Shown here: positions 9,383-60,560 of the stretch, piece after piece | Layout of the letters: each line of letters opens with the position of its first letter | Numbering within the stretch: the first letter of the stretch is position 1 | Source: an uncultured Verrucomicrobiota bacterium | GTDB taxonomy: Bacteria; Verrucomicrobiota; Verrucomicrobiia; Opitutales; Intestinicryptomonadaceae | Direction: 5' to 3' | Length of the DNA stretch: 64,000 bases | Assembly: GCA_949293415.1 (NCBI GenBank) | Contig: CASFDK010000037.1 | Coordinates: 62,001 to 126,000, forward strand | Translations under genes and position numbers: made by a program | Notes under the pieces: generated by a model | What the model was told of the DNA's origin: nothing | What the model saw: only the letters and a program-made list of their open reading frames with translations | Databases searched by the model: none

Positions 9383-9588
9383 AAAAAAAGGGGGGGGAAC
9401 CCCCGCCTGCGCCGCCTTTCCTGTTTGGTTACACAACCTCCATACTAACGAGGTGGGGGCGCCCGAAACGACTTTTGCCTTCCGTTCGAAGACGGCTTGA
9501 CAGCCACCGCCTGCGGATATGCTCCCATTATAATTGTCATTAAGGATGGGAACCTGTTCGGTAGTATCGAACGCTGCAGAGGTTTCCT
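9383..9588 (-). ncRNA. ssrS: 6S RNA candidate
   Basis: The minus strand has the landmarks of 6S RNA, the RNA polymerase-binding regulator. The 5' arm CUCUGCAGCGUUCG resembles the E. coli start CUCUGAGAUGUUCG. Near the middle a GGAAGGCAAAAGUCG block resembles the E. coli GAAGCCUUAAAACUGCG. The 3' arm GGCGGCGCAGG...GGUUCC resembles GGCGGCAUCUCGG..AUUCC. The closing arms can pair, and the length of about 190 nt is right. It ends in a G5/C5 hairpin with a T7 run (9389-9383) acting as terminator. No protein reading competes convincingly. A covariance-model search (Rfam 6S) would settle it. Confidence 0.68.
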
Positions 9589-19199: not shown

Positions 19200-19671
19200 A
19201 AGACGGAGGATTTTGTATGTTTAAGGAGTGCGTATTGTAAAGGCAATCTCCAAGCAGAGTGTCCGATAGTGCACAGTCGGCGTTTAATGTAAACGAAAAT
19301 TTGAATGCGGTTTTGCGGAATTTTTTCAAATGCGGCGGAGAATATCGTTAATTGTAAAAAAAGTTATTGCAATGTGTTGAAAAAAAGTACAAAAAGGAAC
19401 GGTCAAATAGATAGTTCGGAAATTCGATGTCAATCTGTTAATAGAAGTTTATGGAGTCAGTTATATATCCGCGGGGAAAAAGGGTATTTGGGCAAAATAC
19501 TCCGGCGGTTTCTCTCTCCATTTTTCCGGATTTCGGTTTAGATTGGGCAGTTCGGCGCGGCGTCGGATTGCCTTTTTGCAATTTATTGCGCTTCGCAATT
19601 CCGTCGCCTCTCTATTGCGGATGCGGAAAAGTGTCGCGCTACAAACAACAAAACCAAAATACCAACATATT
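19200..19671. other. AT-rich divergent spacer
   Basis: A 472-bp region between the ACP operon (minus) and the histone-like gene (plus). It is AT-richer than the surroundings and has no supportable ORF. It has a small inverted repeat TTGCG-CTT-CGCAA near 19590. I see no RNA gene. Confidence 0.5.
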
Positions 19672-20031
19672 ATGGCAAAAACAGTAGCAAAAAAGGCGGT
19701 TGCAAAAAAGGCTCCCGCAAAGAAAACGGTAAAGAAAGTTGCGGCGGTCAAAAAAGCTCCCGCAAAGAAGGCGGTCGCCAAGAAAGCTCCTGCCAAGAAG
19801 GCGGTAGCGGCAAAGAAAGCTCCCGCGAAAAAGGCGGTTGCAAAGAAGGCTGCTCCCGCGAAAAAGGCTGCGGTAAAAAAAGCTCCCGCAAAGAAGGCGG
19901 TTGCAAAGAAAGCCGCTCCCGCGAAAAAGGCGGCTGCAAAGAAGGCTGCTGTTAAAAAAGCCCCCGCAAAGAAGGCCGCTCCCGCAAAGAAGGCGTGCGC
20001 GAAAAAATGCGCCTGCAAGGCGAAGAAATAG
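19672..20031 (+). CDS. histone H1-like Lys/Ala/Pro-repeat DNA-binding protein
   Basis: A 119-aa protein made almost entirely of the repeats [15 protein letters not shown] and AAPAKKA, like bacterial H1-type proteins (AlgP, Hc1/Hc2). It carries about 50 lysines and has no folded domain. The last residues contain three cysteines (CAKKCACK), which is unusual for this class and could allow disulfide or metal cross-linking. I start it at the ATG at 19672 (MAKTVAKK); an upstream ATG at 19543 adds an unrelated hydrophobic stretch. Its likely role is nucleoid compaction. Repeat number probably varies between strains. Confidence 0.85.
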
Positions 20032-22643: not shown

Positions 22644-22798
22644 AAAATTCCTCCGTACTGTATTTTTTTCGGCGTGGTTCCAGTCGTATTTACCGAATAT
22701 CGAAACCCCAATCTTTCAAGTTAATTTGCCGACTGCAAGAATAATGTCTTGCCGAAGCACGGATTTTGGACAATCATATCCGACGGAATTTATCTAAA

Positions 22799-23758
22799 AT
22801 GTATCCCAAGCGCAAAAAAGCAATCGACTCCGAACCGAAGAAGAAAACGCTCCACACCGTAACGCTCACCGACGAACAGGCGGAAAAGCTCGACGCGTGG
22901 CTCGACAAGCACCTTTGGGCGCCTTTCGACGTAAACTACGCAAAGTTCGCATACAAGGGGCGCGACGTAAACGTGGTTGCGTACTCGTCGGGCAAGGTCG
23001 TTATTCAGGGCAAGGGAACGGAGGAGTTCGTGCAGTTTGTGCTCGAGCCCGAAATCACGGGTTTTGCGCGGCTCGGCTACGACGAAGCCCTTCATCCCGA
23101 GTGGTACGAGCTTCACGCGGGCGTGGACGAAAGCGGCAAGGGCGACCTCTTCGGACCTCTCGTTTCGGCGTGCGTTGTGGCGGACGGCGATGCTGTTCGC
23201 AAATGGGTTGCCGACGACTTGCGGGAATCGAAAAAGGTCAGCAGCGACGAAGCCGTTTTGCGCATGGCGCGGGAAATCAAAGCCACTAAGGGCGTGGCGG
23301 TAAAGGTTTCGTATGCGAGCATGGAAAAGTACAACGCCCTATATATAAAGTTCGGGCGCAATCTGAACAAACTCTTGGCGTGGTTTCACGCAACGGCGAT
23401 TACAAGCGCGCTCAACGAACGCCACGCGCCTTGGGGGATGCTCGACCAGTTTACAAAGCAGCCCCTCGTGCAAAGGCAGCTCGACATTCCGAATTTCGAA
23501 CTGAAAATGCGCACAAAGGCGGAAGAAGACCCCGTCGTCGCGGCGGCTTCGATTGTCGCCCGCGCAACCTACATTTACTCGATGCGCAAGCTCTCCGACG
23601 AATGCGGCATAAAGCTCAAAAAGGGCGCAAGTGCCGACGTGCGCAAGCAGGCGGTTGAAATCGTCGAAAAATTCGGCGCGGACGCGTTGAAACGCTTCGC
23701 CAAGCTCCACTTCAAGACAGCGTCGGAGGCTATTGCCCAAGCGCGCAAAGCCGACTGA
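22799..23758 (+). CDS. rnhC: ribonuclease HIII
   Basis: A 319-aa protein cleaving RNA in RNA-DNA hybrids. An N-terminal TBP-like substrate-binding domain (about residues 20-95) precedes the RNase H fold with the HIII-type DESGKGDLFGPLV motif (about 107-119). The D-E-D-type metal ligands include this DE pair, and the 'EEDPVVAAASIVARATYI' block completes the site. The start at 22799 gives MYPKRKKA; a farther ATG at 22766 is less likely. rnhB follows after 12 bp. Confidence 0.94.
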   Translation: MYPKRKKAIDSEPKKKTLHTVTLTDEQAEKLDAWLDKHLWAPFDVNYAKFAYKGRDVNVVAYSSGKVVIQGKGTEEFVQFVLEPEITGFARLGYDEALHPEWYELHAGVDESGKGDLFGPLVSACVVADGDAVRKWVADDLRESKKVSSDEAVLRMAREIKATKGVAVKVSYASMEKYNALYIKFGRNLNKLLAWFHATAITSALNERHAPWGMLDQFTKQPLVQRQLDIPNFELKMRTKAEEDPVVAAASIVARATYIYSMRKLSDECGIKLKKGASADVRKQAVEIVEKFGADALKRFAKLHFKTASEAIAQARKAD

Positions 23759-23770
23759 TAGCATCCGAAA

Positions 23771-24535
23771 ATGGCTTTGAAAAAACACGGCGCGATTGAA
23801 TCGCTTGCGGCTTTCGACGCGGAATACGCGGCGGGGCGAAGCTGGCTTATGGGCATCGACGAGGCGGGTAGGGGATGTCTTGCCGGTCCCGTCTGCGCGG
23901 CGGCGGCAGCGGTAAAAACGCGTTCATATGCGGTGCCGGCGTTCCTCGAAACGCTCGCGGGCTTGGACGATTCCAAAAAGCTTTCCGAGCACCAACGTGC
24001 GGAACTCTACGCAAAACTTGTCGAGCTTAAAAAGAACGGGTGGCTCGATTTCGAAGCGGCGTTCGCGTCGGTCGACGAGATAGAAAAGCTCAACATTCTG
24101 GGCGCGACGCAGCTTGCAATGGCGCGCGCAGCCCGCAAGCTCGACGAACGCCAAAAGCTCTACCTGCGCGCCGCCGCCGCTCCCGCAACGCTCTTCGGCG
24201 AACAGTCGCTCGATACCTCCAACGCGTGCATTCTCATCGACGGAAAGCCGATGAAAAAATTTCCCTATGCCCATACAGCGGTCGTCAAGGGCGACGCGTC
24301 GAGCTTGGCTGTCGCCGCGGCTTCGATTGTCGCGAAAGTCTCGAGGGACGCGCTGATGGACGAGCTTGCCCGCAAATATCCGCGCTACGGTTTCGATGCG
24401 CACAAAGGCTACGGAACGGCGGCGCACCTGCAAAATCTTATGCTCTTCGGTTCGTGCGAAATCCACAGACCGAGTTTTCTGAAAAAACTCCGCGACGACG
24501 GCGGCGAAAAGGAGACGCAGTCGGAACTTTTTTAG
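23771..24535 (+). CDS. rnhB: ribonuclease HII
   Basis: A 254-aa protein of the type that removes misincorporated ribonucleotides. It has the GIDEAGRGCLAGPV motif (about residues 28-41), 'LDDSKKLS', and the late 'VVKGDASSLAVAAASIVAKVSRD' metal-site block with Asp. It is longer than E. coli RNase HII (198 aa), with an N-terminal extension of about 20 residues and an acidic tail. It is co-oriented with rnhC and 12 bp downstream, so probably an operon of two RNase H types. Confidence 0.95.
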   Translation: MALKKHGAIESLAAFDAEYAAGRSWLMGIDEAGRGCLAGPVCAAAAAVKTRSYAVPAFLETLAGLDDSKKLSEHQRAELYAKLVELKKNGWLDFEAAFASVDEIEKLNILGATQLAMARAARKLDERQKLYLRAAAAPATLFGEQSLDTSNACILIDGKPMKKFPYAHTAVVKGDASSLAVAAASIVAKVSRDALMDELARKYPRYGFDAHKGYGTAAHLQNLMLFGSCEIHRPSFLKKLRDDGGEKETQSELF

Positions 24536-24631: not shown

Positions 24632-25792
24632 ATGAGCGATTCCTATACAGCTATTTTGGCACTCGAAGACGGCAGCGTCTTCAAGGGACGCGCGTTCGGC
24701 GCAAAGAAAACGGTCGTCGGCGAGGCGGTATTCAATACGTCGATGACGGGCTACCAAGAAGTTCTTACCGACCCATCCTATTTCGGTCAAATCGTGACGA
24801 TGACGGCGGTCGAAGTGGGCAATTACGGCGTAAACAAGGCGGATGAAGAGTCCGACGGCATCAAGGTCAGGGGCTTTGTGGTGCGCGAAGTAAGCCCGAT
24901 TCCGAGCAGCTGGCGCAGCGAGCAGTCGATTCAGGAATATCTCGAAAAGGGCGGCGTGCCGGCAATCAGCGGGGTAGACACCCGCGCAATAACAAAAAAA
25001 CTGCGCAGCGCGGGCGCGATGAAGGCCTGCCTTTCGACCGAGGGAATTTCGGCGGAAGAGGCCGTGGCAAAGGCGTGCGGCTGGGAAGGTCTGGTCGGTA
25101 TCGACTACGTTAGGGAGGTAACCTGCAAGACCCCCTACAAGTTCGACGTTGACGGCGAAATTTTGAAGCCCTTTACCGTCGAGGGAACTACGCTCTACAA
25201 TTTCAAGCGCACGGCTCCGCTTTTCAAATGCGCGGCAATCGACTACGGCGCGAAAACTTCCATTTTCAAGCGTCTGGCGTTCCACGGTTTCGACGTGACG
25301 GTTTTCCCCGCCGACACTCCCGCCGAAAAAATCGTCGAATTTTCGCCCGATGCGGTATTCCTTTCCAACGGCCCCGGCGACCCGTCGGCGGTTCATTACG
25401 CGCATGAATGCGTGTCGAAGCTTATCCAAAAGTATCCGACGTTCGGTATTTGTCTGGGACACCAGATAATCACGCACGCAATCGGCGCGCACACATACAA
25501 GCTCAAGTTCGGGCACAGGGGCGGGAACCAGCCCGTAAAGAATCTCGAAACGGGCATTGTTTCGATTACGTCGCAAAACCACGGTTTTGCCGCCGACGCA
25601 AAAGCAGTGGAAAACGCGGGCGCAATCGTTACGGAAATCAACCTCAACGACAACACGGTCGAGGGGCTGCGCCACAAAGATCTGCCCGTGTTCTCGGTTC
25701 AGTACCACCCTGAGGCAGCCCCCGGTCCGAACGATGCGGACGGGCTCTTTGCCGACTTCCACAAACTCGTATCAAAAGTTTGCGGAAAATAA
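24632..25792 (+). CDS. carA: carbamoyl-phosphate synthase small (glutaminase) subunit
   Basis: A 386-aa protein supplying ammonia from glutamine for carbamoyl phosphate (pyrimidine and arginine synthesis). The N-terminal CPSase_sm_chain domain (1-150) has 'VVGEAVFNTSMTGYQEVLTDPSY' and 'VRGFVVRE'. The class I amidotransferase domain has the nucleophile loop GICLGHQ, 'FGHRGGNQPV', and the His/Glu motif 'QYHPEAAPGP'. carB is not adjacent. The 96-bp upstream spacer holds a GCTTG-CAA-CAAGC hairpin. The stop is followed directly by the promoter of the attenuator region. Confidence 0.96.
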   Translation: MSDSYTAILALEDGSVFKGRAFGAKKTVVGEAVFNTSMTGYQEVLTDPSYFGQIVTMTAVEVGNYGVNKADEESDGIKVRGFVVREVSPIPSSWRSEQSIQEYLEKGGVPAISGVDTRAITKKLRSAGAMKACLSTEGISAEEAVAKACGWEGLVGIDYVREVTCKTPYKFDVDGEILKPFTVEGTTLYNFKRTAPLFKCAAIDYGAKTSIFKRLAFHGFDVTVFPADTPAEKIVEFSPDAVFLSNGPGDPSAVHYAHECVSKLIQKYPTFGICLGHQIITHAIGAHTYKLKFGHRGGNQPVKNLETGIVSITSQNHGFAADAKAVENAGAIVTEINLNDNTVEGLRHKDLPVFSVQYHPEAAPGPNDADGLFADFHKLVSKVCGK

Positions 25793-25801
25793 AAAAAACG
25801 C

Positions 25802-25829
25802 TTGACTTCGTTTTTTCGAAGCATCTAAT
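25802..25829 (+). promoter_or_regulatory. promoter of the attenuator leader
   Basis: TTGACT (25802-25807), a 16-nt spacer and TCTAAT (25824-25829). The predicted transcription start near 25836 leaves only about 12 nt before the leader-peptide ATG. Confidence 0.62.
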
Positions 25830-25847
25830 GCGGCAGTAATAAATTTT

Positions 25848-25910
25848 ATGCAAAACTTTTCGGCAGCCTATTACTTTTACTTTAGCTTTCCAAACAAAGG
25901 CGTTCGGTAG
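25848..25910 (+). CDS. Phe/Tyr-rich attenuator leader peptide
   Basis: A 20-codon ORF, ATG at 25848 and TAG at 25908-25910. The centre reads AAYYFYFSFP: codons 8-12 are Tyr-Tyr-Phe-Tyr-Phe and codon 14 is Phe, with another Phe at codon 4, so seven aromatic residues in twenty. This is the signature of amino-acid-sensing leader peptides, comparable to the pheA leader of enteric bacteria. The last codons (GGC GTT CGG) form the antiterminator strand. A ribosome reaching the stop would cover that strand, and one stalled at the aromatic codons would free it. The Shine-Dalgarno site is weak, as for many genes here. Confidence 0.85.
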   Translation: MQNFSAAYYFYFSFPNKGVR

Positions 25911-25969
25911 GCGGTTTGCCCGTATTTGCATATAGAAAAAACCCGAACGCTGAGGCGGTCGGGTTTTTT
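25900..25969 (+). promoter_or_regulatory. transcription attenuator (antiterminator and terminator)
   Basis: Terminator: AAAAAACCCGA (25936-25946) pairs with TCGGGTTTTTT (25959-25969). Antiterminator: GCGTTCGG (25900-25907) pairs perfectly with CCGAACGC (25943-25950), which includes the 5' arm of the terminator, so the two structures exclude each other. A third pairing, CAAAC (25891-25895) with GTTTG (25914-25918), could act as the 1:2 stem that frees the terminator. The layout is that of ribosome-mediated attenuation. Aromatic amino acid shortage should allow read-through into the aldolase gene at 26006. Confidence 0.8.
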
Positions 25970-26005
25970 ATTTTCAAAATTTAATTTCAACATCAAGGAA
26001 ACACA

Positions 26006-27001
26006 ATGAATCAGAAATCAATGAACAGTTCCGCGAAGCACTCGGGTAGATGGGTCGGCTTCAGGAAAGAGTTAAAAGTGCTCGACTGCACAATCAGAGA
26101 CGGCGGTCTTATGAACTCCAGCCGCTTTGACGACAAAACCGTGCGCGCCGTATACGATGCCTGCGCCGACGCGGGTATCGACTATATGGAAATCGGCTAC
26201 AAGAACAGCAAGACCATTTACAACCCCGCCGATTTCGGAGACTGGCGTTTCTGCGACGAAGACGCAGTCAAGCGTATCGTAGGCGACAACAAGCGCGACA
26301 TCAAAATTTCCGTTATGGCGGACGCCGCGAAGAGCGACTACAAAACCGAGCTCGGTCCCAAGTCGGAGAGCCTTATCGATATGGTGCGCATTGCAACGTA
26401 CATCCACCAGATTCCGCTCGCGCTCGATATGATTAAGCACTGCACCGATATGGGCTACGAGACAACCGTGAACATTATGGCAGTTTCGACGGTGCGCGAA
26501 AGCGAGCTTGACGAAGGTCTGGAAATGTTCGGCGAAAGCGGAGTCGGTTCCATCTACCTCGTCGACAGTTTCGGATCGCTCTACAGCGAACAAATCCGCT
26601 ATATGATGGCGAAATACATGCGTATCGCGCACGAATACGGTAAGGAAATCGGCATACACGCGCACAACAATCTGCAGCTTGCCTTCGCCAACACGATAGA
26701 GGCGATTGTCTGCGGCGCGAACATGGTCGACGGCACGCTTGCGGGTCTCGGACGCGGCGCGGGCAACTGTCCGCTCGAACTGCTCGTGGGCTTCCTTCAC
26801 AATCCGCGCTACACAATCCGTCCGCTGCTCGAATGCGTCGAAAAGGAAATAGAACCTATGCGCGAAAAGCTCGGCTGGGGCTTCGACTATCCGTACATGG
26901 TAACGGGCTTCCTCAACCGCCACCCCAAGAGCGCGATGGAATACAACGAGTCCGACAAGCGCGGGCAGATTGTGAATTTCTACGACGACATGATGAAATA
27001 G
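26006..27001 (+). CDS. DRE-TIM metallolyase-like aldolase, first paralogue
   Basis: A 331-aa TIM-barrel protein of the HMGL-like superfamily. The metal/catalytic signature is 'VLDCTIRDGG' (about residues 23-32), followed by 'YMEIGYKNS', 'TTVNIMAVST', 'IYLVDSFGS' and 'GIHAHNNLQLAFANTIEA', whose HxH binds the divalent metal, and 'GLGRGAGNCPLELL'. 'RDGG' rather than 'RDGEQ' resembles aldolases of the 4-hydroxy-2-oxovalerate type more than Claisen synthases (LeuA). 'AAGGAAAC' lies before the ATG. It is preceded by the Phe/Tyr attenuator and followed by a terminator and a second paralogue. The substrate is unknown; regulation suggests an aromatic amino acid connection. Confidence 0.85.
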   Translation: MNQKSMNSSAKHSGRWVGFRKELKVLDCTIRDGGLMNSSRFDDKTVRAVYDACADAGIDYMEIGYKNSKTIYNPADFGDWRFCDEDAVKRIVGDNKRDIKISVMADAAKSDYKTELGPKSESLIDMVRIATYIHQIPLALDMIKHCTDMGYETTVNIMAVSTVRESELDEGLEMFGESGVGSIYLVDSFGSLYSEQIRYMMAKYMRIAHEYGKEIGIHAHNNLQLAFANTIEAIVCGANMVDGTLAGLGRGAGNCPLELLVGFLHNPRYTIRPLLECVEKEIEPMREKLGWGFDYPYMVTGFLNRHPKSAMEYNESDKRGQIVNFYDDMMK

Positions 27002-27012
27002 TTTAACGAACC

Positions 27013-27044
27013 GCCGCACGCCGAAAACGGCGTGCGGCTTTTTT
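27013..27044 (+). terminator. terminator between the two aldolase paralogues
   Basis: An 11-bp perfect stem GCCGCACGCCG-AAAA-CGGCGTGCGGC followed by six T. It is very strong and lies between two genes that would otherwise look like an operon. Confidence 0.92.
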
Positions 27045-27105
27045 GTACGCAATGAAAACTTTCAACGAGCGGAAGTCGGACGAAATCCACAGGGAGGTTA
27101 TGGGG

Positions 27106-28059
27106 ATGATTCGTTCCGACGTAAAAGTTCTCGACTGCACTATACGCGACGGCGGCGCGGTCAACAACAGCCATTTCGACGACAGAACCGTGCGCGCCGT
27201 ATACGACGCCTGCGCCGACGCGGGCATCGACTATATGGAAATCGGTTACAAGAACGACGAAAAGTTCTTCGATCCTCAAAAATTCGGCAAATGGCGTTTC
27301 TGCCGCGAGGACGACATCAGGCGCATCGTCGGCGACAACAAGCGCGACATCAAGCTCGCCGCGATGCTCGATGCGGGCAAGTCGAATCCGCGGACTGCGC
27401 TTGTCGGAAAATCGGAAAGCCCAGTCGATTTGATACGCGTTGCAACATACGCAAAGACGCTTCCCGAAGCCCTCGATACCGTCGCGTACGCCGCCGATTT
27501 GGGCTACGAGACGAGCGTGAACATTATGGCGGTTTCCACGCTTTCCGAGCGCGAGCTAAACCGCGTTTTCGAATCTGCTGCGGTGAGCCGCGCCGACATC
27601 GTTTATATGATGGACAGTTTCGGCGGTCTCGACCCGCACAGGCTGCGCTACGTGCTTGCAAAGTGCCGCTACATCTGCGCAGAATCCGGCAAGCGGATAG
27701 GTATGCACATCCACGACAATCTGCAGCTTGCCTTCGCCAACACGATTGAGGCGGTGGTGGGCGGCGCGGACATCGTGGACTGTACGATTGCGGGAATGGG
27801 GCGCGGCGCGGGCAACTGTCGAACCGAATTGCTCGCGGGTTTTCTGCAAAATCCGCGTTTCCGCATTCGTCCGATACTCGAGTGCGTTCAGGACTGTATC
27901 GAGCCGCTGCGGAAAAAATATTCGTGGGGGTTCGACTACGCCTTTATGGCGACGGGGCTTGCGAATGTGCATCCGTCGGCGGCGATAGCCTACGGCAAGT
28001 CTTCGAAAAAACCGCCGCTTGCCGATTTCTTCGAAGATGTCGAAAACGCGCAGTCATAG
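27106..28059 (+). CDS. DRE-TIM metallolyase-like aldolase, second paralogue
   Basis: A 317-aa protein. It is clearly a paralogue of the gene 100 bp upstream: 'VLDCTIRDGG', 'RTVRAVYDACADAGIDYMEIGYKN', 'TSVNIMAVSTLSERELN' and 'MHIHDNLQLAFANTIEAVVGGADIVDCTIAGMGRGAGNC' recur at matching positions, including the HxH metal motif. I choose the ATG at 27106: GGGAGG sits 8 nt before it, whereas starts near 27043-27052 lie in or just after the terminator T-run. Divergence is concentrated in the middle (AKTLPEALDT) and the C-terminus, so the two may act on different substrates or form a hetero-oligomer. Confidence 0.84.
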   Translation: MIRSDVKVLDCTIRDGGAVNNSHFDDRTVRAVYDACADAGIDYMEIGYKNDEKFFDPQKFGKWRFCREDDIRRIVGDNKRDIKLAAMLDAGKSNPRTALVGKSESPVDLIRVATYAKTLPEALDTVAYAADLGYETSVNIMAVSTLSERELNRVFESAAVSRADIVYMMDSFGGLDPHRLRYVLAKCRYICAESGKRIGMHIHDNLQLAFANTIEAVVGGADIVDCTIAGMGRGAGNCRTELLAGFLQNPRFRIRPILECVQDCIEPLRKKYSWGFDYAFMATGLANVHPSAAIAYGKSSKKPPLADFFEDVENAQS

Positions 28060-60445: not shown

Positions 60446-60462
60446 AAATGGATAAATAAAAA

Positions 60463-60560
60463 GGGGTCAGGCTACCTACTGCACAAATGAAGTATCGTTA
60501 CCGTTGCTTTCTTCCGAATCTGGCGGGGTTGGCGCACGACAAATTGCATAGGGCCCGACC
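60463..60560 (-). ncRNA. ffs: signal recognition particle RNA (4.5S, small bacterial type)
   Basis: On the minus strand the ends GGTCGGGC and GCCTGACC pair (one G-U). The apical domain IV reads CCAGATTCGGAAGAAAGCAACGG-like, carrying the GGAA tetraloop and the asymmetric loop that binds Ffh (bacterial consensus CAGGUCCGGAAGGAAGCAGC). The length is about 98 nt, as in E. coli (114 nt). The closing stem is followed by CCCCTTTTTATTT, so the RNA ends in its own terminator. It sits directly in front of uppS. A TTGCAA hexamer lies at 60592-60597, 30 bp upstream, as a possible -35. Confidence 0.9.

Follow-up and report, generated by a model that had tools for sequence, protein, structure and literature searches.

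Why would a gene for an HMGL-like aldolase be preceded by what appears to be a phenylalanine/tyrosine leader-peptide attenuator? The question arises from the window analyzed here, a 64,000-nucleotide stretch of an Opitutales genome (G000) belonging to the same genus as "Puniceicoccaceae bacterium Marseille-Q1082". In this window the candidate attenuator lies between carA, which encodes the small subunit of carbamoyl-phosphate synthase (24632–25792, +; TIGR01368 above cut-off), and two tandem aldolase genes. The best explanation, and very probably the correct one, is that a Phe/Tyr attenuator controls a DAHP-forming aldolase that is not homologous to DAHP synthase. The window also contains a 6S RNA (9396–9585, −), a small bacterial SRP RNA (60462–60560, −), a Lys/Ala-rich repeat protein with AKKAPAKKA units that resembles histone H1 by eye (19543–20031, +), and two consecutive ORFs resembling, again by eye, ribonucleases HIII and HII (22784–24535, +).

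The original prediction placed a promoter, a 20-codon leader, an antiterminator, and a terminator in this region, and direct reading of the sequence finds all of them where it had put them. The promoter-like site (25802–25829, +) consists of a −35-like TTGACT at 25802–25807, a 16-nt spacer, and TCTAAT at 25824–25829. It was not called by a generic promoter scan, which misses the site because the −10 element carries C at position 2; the −35-like motif nevertheless recurs in relatives, with GCTTG(A/C) found again upstream of most free-standing leaders. The leader ORF, MQNFSAAYYFYFSFPNKGVR (25848–25910, +), runs from ATG at 25848 through 20 sense codons to TAG at 25908–25910 and includes three Tyr and four Phe, with an aromatic core at codons 8–12 (25869–25883) and a further Phe at codon 14. 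Its last three sense codons, GGC GTT CGG, spell the 5′ arm of the antiterminator (GGCGTTCGG, 25899–25907, +), as had been claimed, and the 3′ arm (CCGAACGCT, 25943–25951, +) overlaps the 5′ arm of the terminator. Within these arms, GCGTTCGG at 25900–25907 is the exact complement of CCGAACGC at 25943–25950, and the stem reaches 9 bp when G25899 and T25951 are counted. The intrinsic terminator, a hairpin followed by a T-run (25936–25969, +; −18.0 kcal/mol), is exclusive with the antiterminator: RNA cut upstream of the terminator 3′ arm is predicted to fold into the antiterminator, and longer RNA into the terminator, in agreement with the predicted mutual exclusion.

Such an arrangement goes beyond what chance would produce. 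A scan of both strands for short ORFs with at least five Phe/Tyr per eight codons, followed by a hairpin and T-run, returned, within the window, this leader plus one weak candidate, and nothing in a further ~214 kb. No Tyr/Phe leaders were found near pheA and aroB in relatives, and the window leader matches no Rfam family at gathering score.

Comparison across the window's family (f1) strengthens the reading of the region as a Phe/Tyr attenuator. One genome of the same genus, the single-contig G010, gave no match for anything searched, even widespread genes, and was treated as unusable. Among the 17 orthologous f1 loci with readable upstream DNA, 15 have a Tyr/Phe-rich frame followed by an antiterminator against the terminator 5′ arm, and the layout is also present at four paralogues and at two Chloroflexota loci. 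The f1 leaders differ in sequence (for example, MNPRSEKFYYFYYTGVIR, MHKVSSFYYYYFTYPTV, and MKNYSTSYFFYFFFVSLGIR), with Tyr/Phe codons kept while adjacent codons vary; Trp is nearly missing, occurring once, in L002. Four paralogues—L017 and L042 in genus g3, L033 and L034 in g1—have Tyr/Phe leaders of their own, with unrelated antiterminator sequences. Both stems covary, as the comparison of relatives proposed with the original prediction was meant to reveal: across 12 species, 100% of the antiterminator cells are paired and two-sided changes occur at 2 pairs; the corresponding figures for the terminator are 96.4% and 5 pairs, and slid controls for both stems collapse. Of the 13 readable genomes of the genus, 12 give a single strong match each to a covariance model (E at most 1.2e-13), always upstream of the aldolase gene. 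The original prediction had also named loss of the leader with retention of the gene as evidence that would count against it, and this was in part observed: in sister genus g3, no leader is visible upstream of the primary aldolase copy (G015 and G017), and the g3 paralogues L042 and L017 keep theirs.

Judged from these comparisons, the attenuator is real, and its mechanistic kind is already known. Its parts are a short ORF with aromatic codons, an intrinsic terminator, and an exclusive antiterminator. With a gap of 7–23 nt between aromatic core and antiterminator arm across loci, stalling in the core should keep the ribosome clear of the arm, and a ribosome that reaches the stop codon should mask it. 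The region 25848–25969 would thus act as a ribosome-mediated transcription attenuator sensing charged tRNA-Phe and tRNA-Tyr. When these charged tRNAs are ample, the ribosome would reach the leader stop and cover 25899–25907, allowing the terminator to form and transcription to end; when they are short, it would stall in codons 8–14, leaving 25899–25907 free to pair with 25943–25951. The antiterminator so formed would block the terminator and permit transcription of 26006–27001.

In some lineages, the leader is not a separate peptide. Comparison of CarA C-termini indicates that the g2 genomes G014 and G016, as well as G002, have no free leader, and that the end of CarA itself is the Tyr-rich leader: CarA ends in ...GLFADFHKLVSKVCGK in the window, versus ...GLFGYFYYYVRDILAPEK or ...GLFAGFYYYTKLHT in the fused lineages, where an antiterminator and terminator follow (loci L014, L016, L047, and L015). 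The fused leader occurs in two forms with different antiterminators, which probably reflects separate origins. It is unusual for the tail of an upstream enzyme to serve as a leader peptide, and we found no earlier report of a CarA-fused leader in the open-licence literature.

What, then, does the regulated gene encode? The sole Pfam match of aldolase 1 (26006–27001, +; 331 aa) is PF00682; it matches neither PF00793 nor PF01474 and so falls outside the type I and type II DAHP synthase families. The TIM barrel and the RDG and HxH motifs accompany PF00682 in placing it within the HMGL-like, or DRE-TIM metallolyase, superfamily. R31, D32, H218, and H220 are invariant in the family alignment, giving the expected metal and oxo-acid motif, and the predicted fold (pLDDT 87.6) is closest to 3dxi and to 4-hydroxy-2-oxovalerate aldolases. 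A strong terminator (27013–27044, +) separates this gene from aldolase 2 (27052–28059, +), which also matches PF00682 and which the tree identifies as a tandem paralogue; it has no leader of its own. Divergent f1 paralogues (L035–L041) are ~31–53% identical and have lost several otherwise invariant residues, for example R250 to K and N156 to C. The wider aldolase family shows 67% mean column identity, conservation that is compatible with one shared reaction without proving one. Its gene neighbors include no informative conserved partner, and homologues in other phyla are preceded by only a few weak, short Tyr/Phe ORFs, which we judged to be chance occurrences, with the exception of L063 (below).

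A candidate role emerges from what f1 genomes lack. The genomes searched in f1 and in the Dehalococcoidales include metagenome-assembled genomes (MAGs), which are incomplete. Among the f1 genomes, 18 were readable, and every one of them lacks DAHP synthases of both type I and type II. The only PF00793 (DAHP_synth_1) protein in each of these 18 is KdsA-like (fragmented in G018), and its gene adjoins pyrG on the 3′ side in two of the three loci read. The kdsA-like gene of G000 (G000:C8:3603-4364) contains one in-frame TAG. Other pathway steps are represented: AroB is present in 16 of 18 f1 genomes, with the sampled proteins above the TIGR01357 cut-off, and prephenate dehydratase (PDT) and chorismate synthase in all 14 tested. 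Members of the order outside f1 with genomes of at least 1.7 Mb have a match of DAHP synthase size, except G032 (82% complete), which has no DAHP synthase match of any kind. Most reduced genomes outside f1 (about 0.9–1.3 Mb) have neither DAHP synthase nor an aldolase of this family. A link between absence of DAHP synthase and every homologue of the aldolase was considered and rejected; G065, considered as a genome without DAHP synthase, was likewise rejected when a type II enzyme was found.

The most direct genomic evidence for the role of the aldolase comes from the Dehalococcoidales. L063, from a Dehalococcoidales MAG, was the sole outside homologue with a convincing Tyr/Phe leader in the first survey, and its gene order is leader–aldolase–aroB–aroD–aroE–aroK–aroA–aroC–chorismate mutase/prephenate dehydratase (CM/PDT); neither DAHP synthase type was found in this MAG. 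A search with the AroB of this operon collected 30 loci from relatives. Upstream of aroB lies a type I-beta DAHP synthase at 25 of these and the aldolase at two (G056 and G111), with neither in view at the remaining three. The aldolases of the two swapped operons are 61–64% identical to that of the window. Most of these genomes have a Tyr/Phe leader attenuator upstream of DAHP synthase–aroB (L231–L259), and both kinds of operon begin with a YYAYFTF-type leader and one type of antiterminator: the identical pair CGCTTGGGAGG/CCTCCTGAGCG is common to L249, which has DAHP synthase, and to L230 and L234, which have the aldolase. This gene-for-gene exchange under an unchanged regulator is the strongest genomic evidence that both enzymes share one job. 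The claim of the original prediction that the downstream enzymes are tied to aromatic amino acid metabolism is thereby supported and can be narrowed to DAHP formation. G111, assembled as one contig of 1,727,215 bases, still has a type I-beta DAHP synthase as an orphan at another place in the genome. The tree does not support one shared recruitment for f1 and the Dehalococcoidales, as their aldolases are not sister groups; the source is a widespread family, from which the enzyme was probably acquired on at least two occasions. The Dehalococcoidales aro-operon leaders have no match in Rfam and, to our knowledge, no previous description.

Several alternatives merit consideration against this evidence. 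That the region holds no attenuator at all, and is instead a plain terminator downstream of carA beside an aromatic ORF arisen by chance, is scarcely credible. Terminators behind genes are common, and in the shuffle control 0–48 of 300 shuffles of single loci pair equally well (7/300 at L001, 48/300 at L034); however, the layout recurs at 20 loci of differing sequence, including paralogues with unrelated arms, and the covariation of both stems and the retention of Tyr/Phe codons already contradict a plain terminator. It is also highly unlikely that KdsA doubles as the DAHP-forming enzyme, leaving no hole in the pathway and reducing the aldolase to an accessory. KdsA and type I DAHP synthase do belong to one Pfam family, but the two KdsA proteins sampled pass KDO8P synthase models and score 114–133 bits against DAHP synthase cut-offs of 268–335, and G056 has zero PF00793 proteins yet a full aro operon.

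An aldolase that performs some other aromatic-linked step under a genuine Phe/Tyr attenuator, with DAHP supplied by another, unrecognized enzyme, is an unlikely reading. The aldolase family falls below the cut-off for every named NCBIfam family (122.3 bits versus 286 for TIGR03217), and most homologue-bearing genomes outside f1 already have DAHP synthase, so that the wider aldolase family may have another role. Against this stand the two Dehalococcoidales operons, in which the aldolase occupies the DAHP synthase position behind the same attenuator, and the f1 genomes, which lack exactly the DAHP-forming step.

We therefore favor the reading in which this DRE-TIM (HMGL-like) aldolase would replace DAHP synthase at the entry to the shikimate pathway, its likely reaction being the condensation of pyruvate with erythrose 4-phosphate to DAHP. 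Superfamily chemistry is one basis for proposing pyruvate, rather than PEP, as the substrate. The other is the precedent of KDPGal aldolase (PMC3018139). By this account, DAHP-forming enzymes likely include a third, nonhomologous class, represented by a DRE-TIM aldolase acting on pyruvate, independent of PEP, found in gut Opitutales and some Dehalococcoidales—and possibly in hundreds more genomes that carry close homologues—and subject to Phe/Tyr attenuation, in some lineages by way of the CarA C-terminus. We found neither this enzyme nor these leaders reported in the open-licence literature. If the proposal is correct, predictions of auxotrophy in these gut bacteria would need revision, and the shikimate pathway would have an entry that can do without PEP. 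More generally, the case illustrates how a leader peptide can point to what an unannotated enzyme does.

Comparison with known systems clarifies which elements are familiar. E. coli pheL–pheA and pheM–pheST are leader-peptide attenuators, and the window resembles them in its aromatic-rich short ORF, its overlapping antiterminator and terminator, the order and spacing of these parts, and the control of a gene for aromatic amino acids. It differs in phylum, in its mixed Tyr/Phe core, in its HMGL-like aldolase target, and in the antiterminator arm, which lies within or directly after the last leader codons. The Dehalococcoidales aro leaders also combine a Tyr/Phe leader with an antiterminator that pairs against the terminator 5′ arm, and likewise precede the gene whose enzyme opens the shikimate pathway. 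They differ in governing an entire aro operon, in which a type I-beta DAHP synthase usually comes first, and in having sequences with no relationship to those found in the window's family.

Of the enzymes, the nearest solved structures and families are 4-hydroxy-2-oxovalerate aldolase (TIGR03217; 1nvm) and the putative aldolase 3dxi, with which the RDG and HxH metal motifs are common. Unlike 4-hydroxy-2-oxovalerate aldolase, the window aldolase has RDGGL rather than RDGSH, so that the residue at the position of the 1nvm family's His differs, and no aldehyde dehydrogenase partner adjoins it. Canonical DAHP synthases use PEP. The aldolase resembles both type I (PF00793) and type II (PF01474) enzymes in its proposed product, in its place in the genome, and in being under aromatic control, but these enzymes belong to families different from PF00682. 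In E. coli, KDPGal aldolase offers another way to make DAHP (PMC3018139). The same study reported 108 proteomes in which DAHP synthase is missing; KDPGal aldolase could explain just 14 of them, and the conclusion drawn was that gaps of this kind may be filled by enzymes not yet identified (PMC3018139). The aldolase described here is a specific and easily tested candidate for that role: as in the KDPGal aldolase route, an aldolase would form DAHP in place of DAHP synthase, although the aldolase proposed here is a different one.
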